Shown here in pieces: positions 9,031 to 55,239 of a DNA stretch of 64,000 nt; within the stretch, counting starts at the first letter, position 1; every line of letters begins with the position of its first letter. Origin of the DNA: Aliikangiella sp. G2MR2-5. Its GTDB lineage: Bacteria; Pseudomonadota; Gammaproteobacteria; Enterobacterales; Kangiellaceae. The notes under the pieces were generated by a model. That model did no database searches. It was not told the origin of the DNA and worked only from the letters and a program-made list of their open reading frames with translations. The stretch is from assembly GCF_015687155.1 (NCBI RefSeq), contig NZ_JADPQF010000001.1, positions 1,426,001 through 1,490,000 of the forward strand. Direction: 5' to 3'. Made by a program: the position numbers and the translations under genes.

Positions 9031-12000
9031 TTACTGGGTAATCAATTGCGCAGCCTCATCAACATCAACAGCTACCAGTCTCGAAGCACCTGGCTCTTGC
9101 ATGGTAACTCCCGCAAGTGCAGAAGCCATTTCCATTGACACCTTATTATGCGTGATGTAAATAAATTGAACTGTTTCCGACATCTCTTTAACCAGCTTAC
9201 AAAATCGTCCAACGTTAGCGTCATCTAAAGGCGCGTCGACCTCATCAAGCATACAAAATGGCGCAGGATTTAGACGGAAAATAGAGAATACTAACGACAA
9301 CGCCGTCAAGGCTTTTTCTCCACCAGAAAGTAAATGGATAGTACTATTTCGCTTTCCAGGAGGTCTAGCCATAACTGCAACACCGGTATCTAAAAGATCT
9401 TCACCTGTCATTTCCAGGTAAGCATGACCACCACCAAATACTTTTGGAAATAGTTCTTTCATTCCGGAATTCACTTTATCGAAAGTTTCCTTGAAGCGCG
9501 TACGAGTTTCTTTATCGATTTTCTTGATTACTCCTTCCAGAGTATTTAAAGATTCTTCCAGATCTTCGAATTGAGCATCCAGGTAAATTTTGCGTTCTGA
9601 CTGTTGTTCATGCTCTTCTATTGCAGCCAAATTGATCGCTCCAAGACGTTGGATCCTTGCGACTACCTTTTCAATTCTAGACTCCCACTCACTCTCAGTT
9701 GCCCCTTCCTCCATTTTTGCAAGAATTTCTTCAATATTCTCTGCATCTTCAGAAAGGTTTTCTGCCTGATTTTTTTGCATCGTAGTATTTTCTGACCACT
9801 TCATTCGTAAGCCTTCGAGTCTACTACGCACGCCTTGCGCAGCTTGCTCTGCATCATGACGTTTCTTTTCATACTCTCTGATATGCTTATCAACTTCTTC
9901 CAGCGCTTCTCTTGCTTTAGCCAGCTCAGTCTCCGACTCAAGCCTTTTTTCAAGCGCTTCTTCCAATTCAACCTGCAAGTCATCATCGGGAGAATCAATT
10001 GTCATCAAATTATCTTCTAACGAAACCTTTCTAGATTGCAGTTCTGCAATCTGTGTGTGCATACGCTGATTCGTCGATTGAACGGAATTAATTTCAGACT
10101 TGATATTAGCTACTTCAAGCTCAATTTTGTGTGCCAAATCTTTTGCATTGTGCACCTGGTTTCTTGCCTGCTCTATAGCATTTCTTTTATCTTCCCTAAA
10201 CTGGGTTAACTCTTCTCTCTTTTCCAGGTCATCAGCCATCGCGTCGACCAGAGATTCTAAACTGGCACGACTTTTTGACAAAAGCTCTTCATCAGTTTCT
10301 AATTGTTGATTCAATTCAACCAGGTCTTTGCTTAGGGACTCTTTGCGCTTTGACATTTGTTCCATTTTAGCCTGGTGAGACCCCACCTTCGCACGCAACT
10401 CACTATATCGTTTGTTCGCAGCACTCAATAAACGCTGCTTTTCTTCCCAGGAAGCCTCTAAATCCTTAAGCTTTTCTCTACTGAGATCTGACTTATCAGA
10501 AAGTGCTTCATATTTAGACTCCAAAATTTCCAGTTCTTGAGCTAGTGCTTCAATTTCAGATTCTCTTTCTAAAACGCTACTCTCATTAACAGATGCTTTC
10601 GAAATTCTGATCCAGTTTCTGCCAAGCCATAATCCGTCTTTTGTGATTACTGACTCATATAGAGCAAGCTCCCCCCTTATGGATAAAGCCTCTTCTACCG
10701 AATTACAAATCTTGATATTGGCCAGTAAATGAGCCAATCTTTCACCGTTTGAAACCTTAGAAAGTAAACTATCAGATTTGGCAGATAACTCCTGTACGAC
10801 TCCTTTCTCTAGTAAAGTTAACCTGCCTTCCTGTATCTGACCAAAGCTTTCAATCAAATTCCCCAGCTCATCGACACACACGGCTTCAAGTTGATCCCCC
10901 AGAACAACTTCAACAGCTCTTTCCCAACCTTCGTCGACCTTGATATCTTGTGCTATTTTCTGATTGTTCTTAAGACCATTAGATTCGAGCCATTCATTGA
11001 CGTGCTCGCTGTCTGCACCTAATGCAGCTTTCTGCATAGCGCACAGAGAAATATGCTTACTTTGAACCGATTGTACCTCTTTCCGACACTGATCGAGTTC
11101 ACTTTGCTCCTCTCTTCTTTCTTGACGCAGTGAAGAGATTTCATCCAATAATGAATCAACTTTTTCGGAAAGTGTTTCAGTCTCTTCTTCAGCTTTGCTA
11201 AGCTCAACCGAAGCCTCTACCATACTGTCTTCTAGCGGTTCAGCTTCTAATTTTGCAATCTCTTCTTCGGTCTTTTCAATTCGCTTTACCAGGTTTTCTA
11301 TAACCTTTTCAAAGTGCTGAATCCTGGTGCGCTCTACTTCCATCTTCTGATTATTTTCAGAACTTTGTTTGTTGTAAGAGTCCCAGCGCTCTTCCCAATC
11401 AAGCATACTGGACTCTATTTCTGACAAACTCTCCTGCGCCTGCTCAACTGCTTCGCGGCGTAACTCAAGCTCAGGCTCACTCTCCAGAAGCCTAGCTTGA
11501 AGCGTTTCTAACTGAATCTCGTCTTCACCCATTTGCTCAGTAAGATGCTTTAATGAGCCACTGACCTGACGCAAATCATCACTCAGCTGAGACTTTCGCT
11601 CTTTTCGGTGGGCAATACCTTGTTCGAGACGAGCAATGTCAGCTCCTACACCATAAAAACGACCTTGTGCTCCATTAAAAGACTCGGTGAGTTCAATATG
11701 CTTTTCACGAGTTTGTTCGATCTGATTATCAGCAGAGCGCTGATCAGAGATTCTGGCTTCCAGTTCAACTTCCAGCTTTCTAATCTCAAGAGACAATGAT
11801 TCAGCCTGACCATGAAATTTTTGCCACTTAAGTGCTGATAACTCAGCTCTCAGCTGCCTTTCTTCCTGTTTATACTCTTTGTATTTTGTGGCGGCATTTG
11901 CCTGTCTCTGCAGGTGCGCAAGCTGTTTACCGAGCTCCTCTCTAATATCGCTCAAACGCTCCATATTTTCACGCGTATGCCTGATCCTGTTTTCAGTTTC

Positions 12001-48749: not shown

Positions 48750-50507
48750 TTATTCGGTGGGTTGAACGACAACCTGATTGCGACCACGGCGCTTAGCCAG
48801 ATACATAGCTTCATCAGCGTGAGAAATCAGATCTTTTAGTAAATAGCCTGTTGACCGGGTATTGGCGATACCAAAACTGGCCGAAACATCAAACTCGAAG
48901 CCGGTACTGCTAGTATCAATTTCTGAAACTCGTTTTCTACAGTCTTCAGCAATTTTCTGCGCTTGCTCTATTTCACATCCAGGTAGAAGAATGGCAAACT
49001 CCTCTCCTCCAATACGACCGAAAACGTCGACCTTGCGAACACATTGAGAACAAGCCTTAGTTGCCAACTGTAGAACAATATCTCCAACCGGATGCCCATA
49101 AGCATCATTAATCTTCTTAAAGTTATCCAAATCGAACAAGACCATGCTTACATTTCGCCCAGACTTGGTCATGATTTGCAAAACATCCTCAGCACTTCGC
49201 GTGAAATGTGCGCGATTACAAATTCCAGTTAGGCCATCATACTCAGCTAGATACTTCAACTTTCTTTGAGAACTTCTGAAATACAATATCCAGGCAATGA
49301 GTATCGCCACGCAAAACACCAGCAAGCTAATGATCCAGCGATTATTTTCTGCTTCTTCCTTTGCCAGTTCCTGCTGCAACCGAAGAATACTATTTTGTTT
49401 ATTGAGTGAGTCAATTTCCGCATCTTTTTCCGCAGACTGTCTTTTTGCGGATTCTATAGCTAACTGACGTCCATTAATTTCCTGAAAGTGCTTCTTTTCG
49501 GCTTCAAAGTAATCCCTTAAATAACGAATTGCATCTTCAAGATTATTCTGCTTTAAGCTGCTTAAGTGGAGTATGTTATAGGCTTCAGCCACTGAACGCG
49601 TGGTATTTACCTGAGCATCACTATCCACCGCTTTCTGAGCATATTTTTTGGCATTTAATATATCTTCAAGACTCCAATAAGCTCTCGATAGAATAGAATA
49701 GGATTGAACAATATTTAATTGATATCGTGTTTTTTCAATATTGGGCAAATTTTCTAAAATAAGATCTGAAGCTTCTTTTGCTTTTCCTTCCTTCAAAAGA
49801 AAGTGCGCTAAATGAATTCGAATAACGTTAGCGATTATCTGCTCGTTAGCCTGAGCACAAATATCAATCGCATTATTAAACTCTTTCCTAAAGTCCAACT
49901 CTGCTCCGATTAACCTTTGTGCTTTAAGATTCATTCCCTGGGCCAAACAAATAGAGCGCTTGTCGTTACTTTCTTTTAGAACCTCACTTAAATAAGTAAT
50001 CGTAACTTTATGATATTCGATCTCATCATAAAAAATCGCTGCGGCAATCAAACCTTGATGCCGAATATTAGTATCGATAATCTTTTCTTTGCTTATCTCG
50101 ATAAATCTGATGAACTCTAATCCCGCTCCCCATTTACGACTAAAAGCGTACAGGTTAACCAGTGAAAGCGCTGCACGGTATCGAATTTCTACACTTTGTG
50201 CGTTTTTGAAAACATGCAAATAAGATCTTTCAGCTTCATCCACCAAGCCCTTTAAAGCGCTTTCATACCCTTTTAGATATAAAAAGAAATAGCGTTCATT
50301 TATCGAAAGGTTTTGAAACTGAGGCTCTAGTTGCCGCAAAAGCGATACAAACCGGGCACTGTCTGAAGATTTAACTTTATCAGCCATCCGCAGCACTTTA
50401 ATCGCCGGCATTGGGCTGTCCTCGGATCTAGCTTCTCCAGACTTTGCGCTATGTGTGATCATTAAGACCACACTAAAAAATAAATAAAGAAAAAACGGCC
50501 TGTTCAT
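48750..50507 (-). CDS. TPR-containing membrane diguanylate cyclase (GGDEF)
   Basis: From the ATG at 50507 (585 residues, AGGTG ahead of it; an in-frame GTG at 50519 would add four residues). A signal peptide (MNRPFFLYLFFSVVLMITH) is followed by a periplasmic region of TPR-like helices (about 45-350), a coiled coil, one membrane segment (about 390-412), then a cytoplasmic GGDEF domain. The active site GGEEF is intact and the inhibitory I-site RKVD lies at the proper five residues before it, so it should make c-di-GMP under product control. It begins 41 bases past the RiPP precursor stop in the same direction, so readthrough is possible. Confidence 0.92.
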   Translation of the reverse strand: MNRPFFLYLFFSVVLMITHSAKSGEARSEDSPMPAIKVLRMADKVKSSDSARFVSLLRQLEPQFQNLSINERYFFLYLKGYESALKGLVDEAERSYLHVFKNAQSVEIRYRAALSLVNLYAFSRKWGAGLEFIRFIEISKEKIIDTNIRHQGLIAAAIFYDEIEYHKVTITYLSEVLKESNDKRSICLAQGMNLKAQRLIGAELDFRKEFNNAIDICAQANEQIIANVIRIHLAHFLLKEGKAKEASDLILENLPNIEKTRYQLNIVQSYSILSRAYWSLEDILNAKKYAQKAVDSDAQVNTTRSVAEAYNILHLSSLKQNNLEDAIRYLRDYFEAEKKHFQEINGRQLAIESAKRQSAEKDAEIDSLNKQNSILRLQQELAKEEAENNRWIISLLVFCVAILIAWILYFRSSQRKLKYLAEYDGLTGICNRAHFTRSAEDVLQIMTKSGRNVSMVLFDLDNFKKINDAYGHPVGDIVLQLATKACSQCVRKVDVFGRIGGEEFAILLPGCEIEQAQKIAEDCRKRVSEIDTSSTGFEFDVSASFGIANTRSTGYLLKDLISHADEAMYLAKRRGRNQVVVQPTE

Positions 50508-50548
50508 TAGATCAGACACCTATTAGGTATAAATTTGAAGGATTCAGG

Positions 50549-50839
50549 TTAGAAGCTTACAGCTACGAGGCTTGATGACTCACTTTGTTCTTCGTCAGAC
50601 TTGTCATCTTCGGATTCATCTTCATTATCATCGTCATCTTTGGCAGGTACAAGCATACATACAATCTTGTGCTGGCTTCCCAGGATAGATTCCATCTGAG
50701 AACTATCTTTAGACTTAAGTACAGTAATCATTTCTTCAGAAAGATTTAGATCAGACACCAGAGAATCAATATCCAGCTCACCTTGTTCAAAATTTGGACA
50801 AAGAGAAATTCTTTCAATAGCTTCGATATAGTTTTTCAT
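50549..50839 (-). CDS. split-borosin precursor peptide (RiPP precursor)
   Basis: 96 residues. The N-terminal part (1-54) is helical; its LSEEMITVLKSKDSSQMES segment (33-51) fits the borosin-binding domain of SonA-type precursors, the docking module for the separate methyltransferase. Next comes a hydrophobic stretch QHKIVCMLVPAK (56-67) where the methylated core of SonA lies. Then an acidic linker of Asp/Glu/Ser (68-87) and a second short hydrophobic end, SSSLVAVSF (88-96). ATG at 50839 with AAAGGAAA upstream. It follows its methyltransferase after 145 bases. The core is inferred; which residues are methylated cannot be read from sequence. Confidence 0.82.
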   Translation of the reverse strand: MKNYIEAIERISLCPNFEQGELDIDSLVSDLNLSEEMITVLKSKDSSQMESILGSQHKIVCMLVPAKDDDDNEDESEDDKSDEEQSESSSLVAVSF

Positions 50840-50984: not shown

Positions 50985-51773
50985 TCAGGTAAAAATCAAT
51001 TTAAGTCTTTTTTCAATATCTGTATTCTTCTTCATCACTTCGCAGGGAGGTATAACTAAAGTTGTATAATCATGCAGCTGTGCCTTTGAAAGTTCATTAA
51101 GTGACAGATATTCAACTCTGGATTGGGTTAAAGGTGTTGTACGTGCCTCATATAACACAACTTGATGACTTTCCGGATATATTTCAAAAAGTAGCTCCAA
51201 TAGAATCGAAAGCGATTTTTTATTTGGAGTCCTGCTGGTCAATGTTAAGTCACCGGCAACGCCAATTTGCCAAAGTAAAAGGTAAGCACTAGGATCAATC
51301 AATCTTTGATACAACATAAATTGCGTTGCCTCAAACTGCTGTATTCCGCATGTGCCGGGATCCAAACCCAAATCGGCGATAAGACAGTCTTCTGCAGAGA
51401 TTCCAGGCTCCATTCGGGCTTTAAACCCAATCTCCCTGGTCTTTTCTATCGCTTTATGTGCAACGATCGCAAACATCCCTGGATGACCATAAAGAGCAAG
51501 ACATACTTTCTTTCCACATTCGACTTCGTGAACGACAACATCAACCATAGACTTATAAGTTTTGTTTCGAGGAAGTCCCTTTTCATAATACGACTGTAAA
51601 TTTCTTACATCGCTATTCATGCTCGACACCCACTCTTCCATAATATGTGTCGACACAGACATAAACACTACATCTGCTTCCTCAATGCAACGACGTGCAA
51701 CAGGCGTCAATTGAGCGCCTATTTGAATCCCGGTTCCGACACAAACCAGGCTTCCTTCAGTGGTATTAGTCAA
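50985..51773 (-). CDS. borosin-type peptide alpha-N-methyltransferase (split, SonM-like)
   Basis: 262 residues in the tetrapyrrole-methylase (SAM-dependent) fold, but with the borosin signature: GSLVCVGTGIQIGAQ at the start, LALYGHPGMFA, and MEPGISAEDCLIADLGLDPG then QQFEATQFML. The catalytic Tyr/Arg/Tyr set known from OphMA and SonM is present as Tyr63, Arg69 and Tyr73, with Tyr95 also kept. It lacks the fused C-terminal precursor of fungal OphMA, so the substrate must be separate, as in Shewanella SonM/SonA. The TTG start at 51773 is backed by AAGGA at 8 bases; the next in-frame ATG is inside the fold. Expected to methylate backbone amides of the downstream precursor. Confidence 0.93.
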   Translation of the reverse strand: MTNTTEGSLVCVGTGIQIGAQLTPVARRCIEEADVVFMSVSTHIMEEWVSSMNSDVRNLQSYYEKGLPRNKTYKSMVDVVVHEVECGKKVCLALYGHPGMFAIVAHKAIEKTREIGFKARMEPGISAEDCLIADLGLDPGTCGIQQFEATQFMLYQRLIDPSAYLLLWQIGVAGDLTLTSRTPNKKSLSILLELLFEIYPESHQVVLYEARTTPLTQSRVEYLSLNELSKAQLHDYTTLVIPPCEVMKKNTDIEKRLKLIFT

Positions 51774-51806: not shown

Positions 51807-52361
51807 TCAAAGATACTTAGAATCGTCCATTCTAACAGTGCAGGCGACATCCGAAAATTGCCAGTTTTTCTTCAAAATAACGCCTATTTGGGGATTTTGC
51901 TTGATTGGAGAGCCAGAAAAATCTGTTCCTATAGTTAAACAAGCTCGTATTGCCGCTTTATTTCTAATAGAAGTAACAAAAACAATTTTATTTAATCCCA
52001 AATAGTTGAATAAGTAATTTATTAACATTATAGCGGTCAGCCTGGCAGTTCCTTTTGGGGCTTTTTTTGCCATTAACATAAAACCAAGCTCTGCTGTCAT
52101 CTGCTTACTACAAACCTGAACGCCAATAAATCCTACCTCCAGGTTATCTCGTTTCAAGACGATCAAGTAGTTGATACTACTCAAGGAGTTTAAAGCCACA
52201 TCAAAATTTTTATCAACTTCATCTTTTGAGAAAGCCCTATCAATATATCTTGTCGTTCGTTTACATAAGAACGCTTTTTTATAAATCGGCTTATGTATTC
52301 CGCTCAGAGGAACCAACCTAAACTCATCCGTTTCCAAAATGGGAAGTTTTTTACTGGACAT
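51807..52361 (-). CDS. GNAT family (RimJ/RimL-type) N-acetyltransferase in the borosin cluster
   Basis: From the ATG at 52361 it is 184 residues; a TTG at 52373 overlaps the protease stop (TTGA) and would add four. The fold is RimJ/RimL-like: ETDEFRLVPLS at the start, GFIGVQVCSKQMTAELGFMLM as the central sheet, a degenerate acetyl-CoA loop in KAPKGTARLTAIML, then RNKAAIRACLTIG. Residues around the pantetheine loop are less canonical than in housekeeping RimI/RimJ, so the acyl donor is uncertain. It lies 8 bases past the protease stop and 33 before the methyltransferase, in one operon. A role in tailoring the peptide is inferred. Confidence 0.75.
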   Translation of the reverse strand: MSSKKLPILETDEFRLVPLSGIHKPIYKKAFLCKRTTRYIDRAFSKDEVDKNFDVALNSLSSINYLIVLKRDNLEVGFIGVQVCSKQMTAELGFMLMAKKAPKGTARLTAIMLINYLFNYLGLNKIVFVTSIRNKAAIRACLTIGTDFSGSPIKQNPQIGVILKKNWQFSDVACTVRMDDSKYL

Positions 52362-52369
52362 TGCTTTAT

Positions 52370-53716
52370 TCAAAACTTCGCTTTCGCAAACTTCATGTCC
52401 CCGAACTCATTCTCAAATCGAGCAAATATCACATAATAATCAGACATCAGAGGTAACCCCAAAATTGATTGATCAGGCCACCCAGGAAGCTGCGAAATAA
52501 TTTTAAAAGAAGCCTGTCCATGCTGTGGAGCGTTAACTTGCCAATAGTCATCCGCTTTACAAATGAGACTGACTTCCTCTTCCTCTGAATCGACTGAAGC
52601 CTCAAAGATAAACTCAATATCCGGCCATTCCTCCAGATTTACCAAACTGGCGTCAACGCCTTCTTCCTTATATTCAAATGACAAGAATGGCTCCAAAATA
52701 TCCTTAAACTTGGGATCAACCTTTTCCATGCATTCGATAATATAGTTAAAGACAACATTATCCAATACGAGCAAGGTAGCACCAGTATCCATAAAAGCAT
52801 TCGAGTGATGCTTTTCCAGTTCTTTTCCTTCGAGAACAGGTACGTCAAAGGCTTCGAAACCATCGACTTTTACTTTTAGCAACCTGACATTGTAGTAAAC
52901 ATCATCAACAACTTTAATTCGAGTAAATTCGCCTTCATAAAGGTCTTGATCTTCTTCGCCACCTCCCAAGATAAATAGCCCCTGATTAAGAGGGTCTTGT
53001 TTCAGGTCTTCTTTAGACAAATTTGGCGCAGCATGATGAATACTGGAGCGTCGAGTAACAAATGAAAATTTATTGGCTGAAACACCTTGTTCTTCCAAAC
53101 AGGTAAAATAGGGTCTAAGTTCGCTCTTAGGTTTGTTTTTCACAAATGATCGGAAAGATTTAACACTTTGTTTCTCAATACCAGTATTGGACCAGGGATA
53201 AGTGACTTCCGGAGCAATACCCTGCTCTTTTAGGTAATCCTGTAGACAATGGGCATCATTCAGTTCATAAAATGCCAACCCCAATATCCCGTCCGCATCA
53301 GCAAACATGCCTTGTTGAAACTCTGCAGCGATCGAGACATGTGTATTGTCCAGTAGCATCTTCCCATTGTGAGATATCATGTCAACACCAGTCTTAACGA
53401 CCGGTCCGTACCAACCACCAACACCGTAGCGAACATATTGAGCAAAGGATGTCGGCACCAGCTCACGATCGACTTTTGATTCATAGGCAGTTTGTGTTAC
53501 TACCAGAGTACTACTACCACTATCCAGAACCAATTCAGCTGTATCAGTTTCACTGCCAAAAGCAACTGTTACCGAGAAGCCTCCTCTGGCATGGACATTA
53601 GTTATCGGCATTCGCAAGGTTTTGCGGCTTCCGTTTTGGCTAGTATCTGTACTGGCGCCACACAGCTTTTTTTCTTTTTGTAACGACTCGTTAGCTTCTT
53701 GTTTTTGACTTTCCAT
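52370..53716 (-). CDS. pepsin-like aspartic protease (family A1) in the borosin cluster
   Basis: 448 residues. Both lobes of the A1 fold carry an active-site Asp: Asp65 in LVLDSGSSTLVV and Asp310 in AFMDTGATLLVLD. Other family marks are DGILGLAFYELND (142-154) and LFILGGGEEDQDLYEGEF. There is no signal peptide or propeptide-like start; the first 35 residues are hydrophilic, so it should be cytoplasmic. Pepsin-type A1 enzymes are rare in bacteria; shewasins of Shewanella are the known cases and also lack a signal. First gene of the operon ending in the precursor, so I infer it cleaves the leader or core of the methylated peptide. Confidence 0.88.
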   Translation of the reverse strand: MESQKQEANESLQKEKKLCGASTDTSQNGSRKTLRMPITNVHARGGFSVTVAFGSETDTAELVLDSGSSTLVVTQTAYESKVDRELVPTSFAQYVRYGVGGWYGPVVKTGVDMISHNGKMLLDNTHVSIAAEFQQGMFADADGILGLAFYELNDAHCLQDYLKEQGIAPEVTYPWSNTGIEKQSVKSFRSFVKNKPKSELRPYFTCLEEQGVSANKFSFVTRRSSIHHAAPNLSKEDLKQDPLNQGLFILGGGEEDQDLYEGEFTRIKVVDDVYYNVRLLKVKVDGFEAFDVPVLEGKELEKHHSNAFMDTGATLLVLDNVVFNYIIECMEKVDPKFKDILEPFLSFEYKEEGVDASLVNLEEWPDIEFIFEASVDSEEEEVSLICKADDYWQVNAPQHGQASFKIISQLPGWPDQSILGLPLMSDYYVIFARFENEFGDMKFAKAKF

Positions 53717-53919
53717 GAATTTTTATTCTTATAAGACTAATAAATTGATTTTGATCCTGACAATTGCCGGTAAATAGCTTTAGCGGCAATCTAAAAGCAG
53801 GTAAAATATCAGCCACTTAACCGTGACGCAAGCTTTGTTCATTGAAGGGCAAAATTCATACAAGATTATCTTCTTGCGATATATAGGTGAATAACAATTA
53901 ATCTTCAGGTACTCAAGTT

Positions 53920-55239
53920 ATGGAAACTAAAGTTGAGCAAATAATAACCGCCGATTGGCTAATACCTATGACCCAGGCCGATCATTGGATAGAAAATGCT
54001 GGTCTTTTAATAAGAGGCACAGAAATAATTGCTGTGGACAAGTTAGACATATTAACTGAAAAGTATCCGGAAGTTTCACACACCCATCTGGAAGGCCAGG
54101 CATTGCTCCCCGGTTTCATCAATAGTCACTGTCATGCAGCAATGAACTTACTTAGGGGCCTTTCGGATGACTTACCATTAAAGCAGTGGCTCGAAGAAGC
54201 AATATGGCCCGTTGAAGCTCAGTTCGTTGATAATAGCTTTGTCTATCAAGGCACTCAGCATGCTATTGCCGAAATGCTACGTTCCGGTACCACCTGCTTC
54301 CAGGATATGTACTTTATGCCTGATCAAGCGGCCAAGGCCGTCAAGGAGTCAGGTATCCGGGCTTCCATTGGAATGGTTGTTGTCGAGTTTGAAACAAGTT
54401 GGGCACAAAATGCTCAAGATTGTATTGATAAGGGACTGGACGTATTTGACCAGTTTAAACACAGCCCGACAATTAACTTCAATTTTGCACCCCATGCCCC
54501 ATATACCGTTGAAAAAACAACTCTCGAAAAGCTAGGAATGTTATCTAACGAGTTGAGTTTGCCGCTACAAATGCATATACACGAAACGGCTTACGAAGTT
54601 GAAACTTTTATTGAAGCGCACGGTGTCAGGCCACTTACCAGACTCAAAGAAATAGGCCTGATAAGTCCGTTACTTAATGCTGTCCACATGACTCAATTGA
54701 ATGAAGGCGAAATTGAATGGTTAGCTGACGGCGGGAGCCACGTCATCCACTGCCCGCAATCAAACATGAAATTGTCCAGCGGTGTTTGTCCTACAAAACA
54801 ACTGCTCGAAGCTGGAGTAAATATTGCACTAGGAACCGATGGCGCAGCGAGTAACAACGATCTTGATATGATTGATGAAATTCGCTCAACTGCCCTGCTA
54901 GCCAAACTCGACTATCTTGATCCAACTGCGATGTCTGCTTATGAATCTCTGTACGCCGCTACCATGGGTGGAGCGAAAGCTTTAGGGTTACAGGAAAGCA
55001 TTGGATCATTGGAAGCGGGCAAGCTTGCCGATTTTATTTCTATTGACTTAAACTGTATCGAAACACAACCAGTTTATAACCCGGTATCACAAATTGTTTA
55101 TGCTGCCGGTAGAGAACAAGTAAGCAATGTCTGGGTCAACGGAAAGCAATTAATGTCGAACCGTAAACTGAAAACGTTAAATAGCGATTTGATTTTGCAA
55201 AATGCCAGGCATTGGCGGAACAAGATTATTAATCGATAA
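53920..55239 (+). CDS. mtaD: 5-methylthioadenosine/S-adenosylhomocysteine deaminase (MtaD/TrzA-type)
   Basis: 439-residue amidohydrolase. Metal site INSHCHAAMNLLRG (H-x-H), later HIHE, then HCPQSNMKLSSG and GTDGAASNNDLDM with the Asp ligand. This NMKLSSG/GTDGAASNN pattern is that of MTA/SAH deaminases of the TRZ/ATZ family, which recycle SAM by-products. It heads the mtaD-ubiG-gph operon seen in many gammaproteobacteria. The SAM-dependent UbiG downstream would make SAH, so the pairing is sensible. It is divergent from the A1 protease across 203 bases. Confidence 0.9.
   Translation: METKVEQIITADWLIPMTQADHWIENAGLLIRGTEIIAVDKLDILTEKYPEVSHTHLEGQALLPGFINSHCHAAMNLLRGLSDDLPLKQWLEEAIWPVEAQFVDNSFVYQGTQHAIAEMLRSGTTCFQDMYFMPDQAAKAVKESGIRASIGMVVVEFETSWAQNAQDCIDKGLDVFDQFKHSPTINFNFAPHAPYTVEKTTLEKLGMLSNELSLPLQMHIHETAYEVETFIEAHGVRPLTRLKEIGLISPLLNAVHMTQLNEGEIEWLADGGSHVIHCPQSNMKLSSGVCPTKQLLEAGVNIALGTDGAASNNDLDMIDEIRSTALLAKLDYLDPTAMSAYESLYAATMGGAKALGLQESIGSLEAGKLADFISIDLNCIETQPVYNPVSQIVYAAGREQVSNVWVNGKQLMSNRKLKTLNSDLILQNARHWRNKIINR

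Follow-up and report, generated by a model that had tools for sequence, protein, structure and literature searches.

In Aliikangiella sp. G2MR2-5, a pepsin-like aspartic protease is encoded by the first gene of a conserved cluster that also encodes a GNAT acetyltransferase, a SonM-like borosin methyltransferase, a SonA-like precursor, and a TPR/GGDEF sensor. Judged by gene content across the genomes surveyed, the protease accompanies borosin precursors that end in an acidic tail, even where it is encoded elsewhere in the genome. A conserved gene set headed by a pepsin suggests a role both for the pepsin (i.e., finishing a peptide) and for the peptide (i.e., signalling). Thus, we posit, with a probability of roughly 60% and on the basis of sequence comparisons, that the pepsin would mature the acid-tailed borosin precursor into an N-methylated peptide and that a Rap-like TPR receptor would read this peptide.

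A pepsin at the head of a borosin cassette

In the window, by which we mean the whole 64,000-nucleotide stretch of DNA that was analysed, the features of the cassette are as follows.

52370..53716, minus strand: shewasin-like family A1 (pepsin-like) aspartic protease; intact 448-aa open reading frame with an ATG start
51807..52361, minus strand: GNAT acetyltransferase (PF13302); ATG at 52361, 8 nt past the protease stop
50985..51773, minus strand: SonM-like borosin peptide backbone alpha-N-methyltransferase, 262 aa; best PDB match SonM, E 4e-70
50549..50839, minus strand: SonA-like precursor, 96 aa, with borosin binding domain, hydrophobic core, and acidic tail
50648..50665, minus strand: predicted core IVCMLV before P-A-K-D-D-D, precursor codons 59-64, from precursor alignments
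48750..50519, minus strand: TPR/GGDEF sensor, 589 aa, with signal-like N terminus, predicted periplasmic TPR part, one transmembrane helix at about residue 396, and GGEEF diguanylate cyclase
53717..53919, no strand: divergent intergenic region between the cluster and an mtaD-like gene; candidate cluster promoter

The genes run on the same strand in the order protease, GNAT, methyltransferase, precursor, and sensor, and no gap exceeds about 145 nt; the open reading frame listing starts the GNAT gene at a TTG (52373) instead, in which case it overlaps the protease gene. The mtaD-like gene at 53920-55239, a name that we take to denote an amidohydrolase type, is divergent from the cluster, and with all of the other cassette genes downstream on its own strand, the protease is the first gene of the cluster, as the preliminary description had it. 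That description had missed the TPR/GGDEF sensor and the GNAT, as well as the preference of the protease for one kind of precursor over SonM in general. The divergent region likely holds the cluster promoter; a promoter scan turned up 16 promoter-like sites in the cluster, in line with the 14.4 expected by chance.

A separate alpha-N-methyltransferase and an adjacent, discrete precursor with a borosin binding domain are features shared with SonM-SonA of Shewanella oneidensis as described (PMC8429565), and they assign the pair putatively to the split (type IV) borosins, with backbone N-methylation predicted. The window precursor was aligned with 45 related precursors, and the position of the predicted core was inferred from L63 and I65 of SonA, the residues reported to be methylated by SonM (PMC8429565). 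Precursors like that of strain MR-1 stop at the core, whereas the window system adds the acidic tail, the GNAT, and the pepsin. The window genome contains two more SonM genes (G000:C31:326624-327370 and G000:C12:25747-26481; loci L329 and L330), each followed by a small open reading frame and then a TPR histidine kinase; the small frame of L330 is a weak precursor match.

The protease matches PF00026 (Pfam) at E 3.4e-12, past the cut-off of that entry, and is the only protein in the window genome to do so. Both catalytic motifs are intact, as previously claimed, with Asp65 in D65-S-G-S-S and Asp310 in D310-T-G-A, and in the alignment of the protease family both catalytic Asp residues and the flap Tyr are conserved throughout (81/81 proteins for each). 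The flap Tyr of the window protease is Y97, presumably the equivalent of pepsin Tyr75. An AlphaFold model (pLDDT 79.5, pTM 0.81) adopts the bilobal pepsin fold in one chain, matching chymosin and BACE1 at E values of about 1e-21 over 420-445 alignment columns, with TM scores of about 0.6 by query and 0.67-0.78 by target. Based on the motifs, the flap Tyr, and the modelled fold, we regard the protein as a putative family A1 member, predicted to carry out pepstatin-inhibited proteolysis. Neither its sequence nor its model contains a signal peptide or a segment of pro-domain size (residues 2-29 have pLDDT values below 50), and here too the preliminary description holds. By a simple rule, 3/81 aligned proteases have a hydrophobic N terminus, and these are perhaps start-codon miscalls.

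The absence of a signal peptide and prosegment, the catalytic dyad, and the Ala after the second motif are all shared with the pepsin-like shewasins A and D (PMC4814920). This Ala, described as a hallmark of marine bacterial pepsins (PMC4814920), follows the second motif (DTGA) in 42/81 aligned proteases. Many Shewanella cassette proteases are longer (about 520-600 aa), and the characterised shewasin A and D genes were not recognised by name among the named loci introduced below; the protease of the Shewanella genome G165 (422 aa, Asp37, 46.1 kDa) is near shewasin D as described (D37, 46.7 kDa), a likeness that does not by itself fix the species. In Kangiella proteases (e.g., L012, L016, L018, L020, and L021), the second motif is Asp-Cys-Gly and not Asp-Thr/Ser-Gly, with Cys at this position in 9/81 aligned proteases.

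The protease family and the acid-tailed precursor

A profile built from 18 family members was used to scan 84,980 species genomes, and the best 80 of the 103 relatives found were kept as named loci. The preliminary description considered A1 proteases rare in bacteria; 103 relatives in 84,980 genomes bear out the rarity, and the family is nonetheless wider than the two named shewasins. Most of the 80 kept relatives come from Gammaproteobacteria, and a small number belong to Acidobacteria, Planctomycetes, and Bacteroidetes. Their commonest neighbour clusters are GGDEF proteins (53 loci, a count that takes in some shorter or more distant GGDEF proteins), a merged cluster of SonM plus GNAT (47), and the small precursor (34).

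In 42/80 named loci, SonM is no more than 3 kb from the protease, and in 40 of these the two share a strand; among the 42, L063 is fragmentary, at the end of a contig, and in L116 and L119 SonM is on the opposite strand. In three Colwellia loci (L072-L074), SonM is 5.5-6.4 kb from the protease, past repeated precursor-sensor pairs, and in L075, L105, L111, and L123 other cassette genes adjoin the protease. The cassette occurs in Shewanella, Colwellia, Thalassotalea, Alteromonas, Aliiglaciecola, Bowmanella, Rheinheimera, Aliikangiella, and Arenimonas. In L061 (Aliikangiella marina), a second SonM gene (9043-9840, minus strand) is divergent and immediately upstream of the protease.

To what extent does this pairing hold without selection for the protease? 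An unselected survey sampled 394 genomes evenly across the window's order; the protease was found in 38 and SonM in 96, and SonM was present in 38/38 protease genomes. In 23 of these 38, SonM is on the same strand within 2.5 kb, and these genomes represent 8 of the 11 protease-bearing genera. The preliminary description had proposed checking Shewanella and other genomes for shewasin-like genes adjoining SonM-like methylases; this neighbourhood association across genomes was found, and the hypothesis of a maturing role passes that check. Linkage is uneven, with 8/22 protease genomes linked within the window's family (a count that takes in G010, where SonM is broken at a contig end) and 15/16 outside it. 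Three family genomes from outside the order draw were removed before counting.

SonM loci sort by precursor into an acid-tailed and a short kind. In the acid-tailed kind, a core that reads hydrophobic-x-Cys-three hydrophobics-Pro precedes acidic residues and an acidic tail, and a GNAT is usual; precursors of the short kind (e.g., the MR-1 kind of Shewanella) are about 70 aa, end at the core, and come without a GNAT. The acid-tailed precursor profile was derived from precursors near proteases, and a second rule, which asks that D/E make up at least a quarter of the final 30 residues, does not depend on that profile. The surroundings of SonM were covered in 94/96 genomes, leaving out G006 (a contig-end fragment) and G340 (a marginal match). 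With loci lacking a recognised precursor scored as not acid-tailed, the acid-tailed precursor is present in 38/38 protease genomes versus 7/56 SonM genomes without the protease (Fisher 1.6e-19, ancestry ignored), and a GNAT is beside SonM in 36/38 versus 7/56. All 15 order-draw genomes in which the protease is unlinked carry the acid-tailed module. In the Shewanella genus group, where protease and module are linked, the acid-tailed precursor is found in 9/9 genomes with the protease and 0/17 without it.

These observations bear on the pairing first proposed. Adjacency and co-occurrence of protease and SonM stand, and the pairing is tied to the acid-tailed kind of precursor and not to SonM in general; we rejected the general link in favour of one to the acid-tailed module because the MR-1-kind Shewanella SonM loci examined have no protease. 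In one Shewanella genome (G238, locus L253), counted among the 38, a protease remnant lies in a 112-aa frame beside SonM, no sensor was found nearby, and the module looks to be in decay.

Could the association merely reflect shared ancestry of one gene block, with no functional coupling among its members? A single genus can equal one event: the Kangiella pattern (11/11 versus 0/7) is one change on the GyrA tree, and we therefore dropped it as independent support. Against this explanation, gene order is retained in cassettes whose proteins have diverged to about 33-45% identity with the window for the protease and 23% for the GNAT (in L011, about 42% and 23%, respectively), while the flanking genes differ. 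Furthermore, in Kangiella, Pleionea, Rheinheimera, Marinicella, Tahibacter, and others, proteases encoded apart from the matching module are retained alongside it in the genome. We consider ancestry without coupling very improbable.

A further 30 genomes were reached through named loci, picked mainly for a protease without SonM beside it (the exceptions being L077, L122, and L133, in the last of which SonM was found later); at least 5 of the 30 also sit in the order draw. SonM is present in 23 of them, and all but one of the 23 carry a match to the acid-tailed precursor profile, in at least 4 cases with a short acidic end only. SonM was not matched in the other 7, which comprise Solibacteraceae, Acidobacteriaceae, Planctomycetales, Bacteroidetes, and Chitinophagaceae genomes and two gammaproteobacterial MAGs, one of 2.5 Mb and one from Colwellia with its protease locus broken at a contig end. 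The named proteases of Acidobacteria, Planctomycetes, and Bacteroidetes without SonM detected genome-wide are L088, L101, L103, L130, and L138. In the five non-proteobacterial genomes without SonM, the protease must do something else or have a partner beyond the reach of the profile.

The sensor and its covariation with the core

A TPR protein is encoded downstream of at least 93 of 122 SonM genes, usually fused to a diguanylate cyclase or a histidine kinase. For 56/122 SonM frames, the directly downstream protein scores at least 200 bits against the TPR/GGDEF profile; among 51 other large frames downstream of SonM, TPR_12 occurs in 37 and a histidine-kinase ATPase domain in 22. No large frame was within reach for 14/122, and at some remaining SonM loci a cyclase is upstream of SonM. 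In the named loci plus the window, all 61 sensors longer than 500 aa have a GGEEF motif preceded by a membrane helix, and their N termini contain a hydrophobic stretch (the best 15-residue segment reaches a hydropathy of 1.5 or more in 61/61 and of 1.8 or more in 56).

The model of the window sensor has a pLDDT of 88.5, and its TPR part (residues 30-356) superposes on RapF-PhrF with a Z score of 25.0 over 315 residues at 4.3 A (VIA-align), on phi3T Rap with 24.9, and on NprR with 23.1. Rap and NprR are peptide quorum sensors of the RRNPP family; unrelated TPR proteins score about as high (23-24) as these (Z 23-25), and the window sensor is at most a candidate member of that family. Binding of the co-encoded peptide is predicted, indirectly, from the core-TPR covariation described below. 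Unlike in Rap and NprR, the TPR part of the cassette sensors is predicted to be periplasmic and is fused to a GGDEF domain or, elsewhere, to a histidine kinase.

Across 76 acid-tailed precursor-sensor pairs, core distances track TPR distances with GGDEF and SonM distances removed (partial r 0.50, p 0.001, a value that holds under permutation within clades), and the cores track neither GGDEF (-0.12) nor SonM (0.00). As a positive control, the SonM-binding leader tracks SonM (0.36, p 0.001). The leader tracks the TPR domain as well (0.43, p 0.014 within clades), and thus part of the core-TPR signal may be whole-precursor ancestry; with the leader as an added control, the core-TPR value is 0.42 (p 0.002 within clades). 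Six Colwelliaceae loci (L068, L070, L072, L073, L074, and L079) contain at least two tandem precursor-sensor pairs in which the cyclase domain is shared while TPR and core differ: between neighbouring pairs, GGDEF distances are 0.08-0.23, TPR distances 0.62-0.74, and core distances 0.56-0.84. Duplicated ligand-receptor pairs would look like this.

One might ask whether the target of the protease is the sensor, or another cell protein, such that regulated proteolysis is the output of the pathway. Protease and sensor are co-encoded, and in L105, L111, L116, and L119 their genes directly abut in convergent orientation. By its sequence, though, the protease is cytoplasmic, and the variable part of the sensor is predicted to be periplasmic; sensors are also common in modules without a protease, and the protease tracks the type of precursor. 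We regard a proteolytic output of this kind as quite unlikely.

The protease itself does not co-diverge with the core (partial r -0.01, not significant; 0.07, p 0.18, with one pair per locus), and a weak relation was found between leader and protease (0.17, p 0.02, one pair per locus). The comparison thus gives no sign that the core is read by the protease. Such a result would suit a non-specific degrader, and this raises the possibility that the protease ends the signal by degrading or inactivating the peptide or its precursor, an explanation that predicts an identical genomic association. Backbone N-methylation guards against proteolysis, however, and the peptide would be protected in this way; moreover, the protease pairs with one precursor form, the one whose extra segment maturation would have to remove. 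Signal turnover is therefore, in our estimation, unlikely, and maturation remains the reading that we favour.

A proposed maturation of the precursor and its meaning

In the model that we propose, SonM would methylate backbone amides in the hydrophobic core (IVCMLV in the window). The cytoplasmic pepsin would then cut beside the core, either at a bond joining two large hydrophobic residues or at the acidic junction, freeing it from the leader and the acidic tail, and the GNAT may cap the new N terminus. We speculate that the N-methylated peptide would enter the periplasm and bind the diguanylate cyclase of the cassette through its Rap-like TPR domain and that this binding would alter c-di-GMP. 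In precursors of the short type, which are found without the pepsin, the core lies at the C terminus with no tail to remove. Removal of a leader or follower from a precursor, predicted here, would be shared with other RiPP maturation proteases.

Published properties of the shewasins speak on both sides. Shewasin D is located in the cytoplasm (PMC4814920), the cellular site of the presumed substrate. The reported cleavage preference is for Leu, Phe, or Tyr at P1, a hydrophobic residue at P2, and Ala, Phe, Val, or Ser at P1'; shewasins A and D also accept Asp at P1, and pepstatin blocks both (PMC4814920). The residue two ahead of the conserved core Pro, a candidate P1 for a pepsin cut, is L or F in 35/63 cores from protease genomes and M in 10/63, and because the cores were extracted by motif, only such variable positions are informative. 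Against maturation, this likeliest cut would put Pro at P2', which is not among the preferences described for shewasins, and seven SonM genomes of the order draw have an acid-tailed precursor with no protease found. The main objection is the acidic pH optimum, awkward for a cytoplasmic step: shewasin D has an optimum of pH 3.5-4.0, and shewasin A is inactive at pH 6 (PMC4814920). In Tahibacter (L227), the C terminus of the precursor has a repeated acidic segment and is possibly multi-core.

How much of this is new? The shewasin-like A1 kind and the split-borosin methyltransferase-precursor pair are already known, and relative to the literature searched, the bacterial pepsin-borosin link and the borosin-TPR sensor link are new. 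Searches for borosin with aspartyl protease, borosin with tetratricopeptide, and SO1480 returned no papers; Imani 2022, Cho 2022, and Crone 2023 may show such neighbourhoods. In the available text of the SonM paper (PMC8429565), the word "protease" occurs in the methods only, and "aspartic" and "peptidase" are absent; the available text of a review of RiPP leader proteases (PMC10885120) does not mention "pepsin," "aspartic," or "aspartyl." Unlike the shewasins as described, whose in vivo role was not known (PMC4814920), the family here is tied to a borosin cassette.

The shewasin D paper (2016; PMC4814920) left open what bacterial pepsins are for, and according to the available text of the SonM paper (2021), no split-borosin pathway had then been tied to a final natural product. 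The cassette unites both questions and offers, for testing them, a defined substrate and protease along with c-di-GMP as a readout. To go by the title of Crone 2023, a split-borosin pathway has reportedly since been tied to a final natural product.

Tentatively, and at somewhat less than even odds, we speculate that these cassettes represent a widespread, undescribed class of Gram-negative signalling, in which ribosomal peptides that backbone N-methylation renders membrane-permeable, matured by a cytoplasmic pepsin in one branch and probably N-capped by a GNAT, would act on Rap-like periplasmic TPR receptors of diguanylate cyclases and histidine kinases, the pairs duplicating and diverging in specificity. 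Pepsin cutting beside N-methylated cores, if true, would be a practical tool to release such peptides. If the receptor reading is true, N-methylated peptides would join bacterial cell-cell signalling, and the cassette would offer a genetic handle on peptide-receptor pairs.
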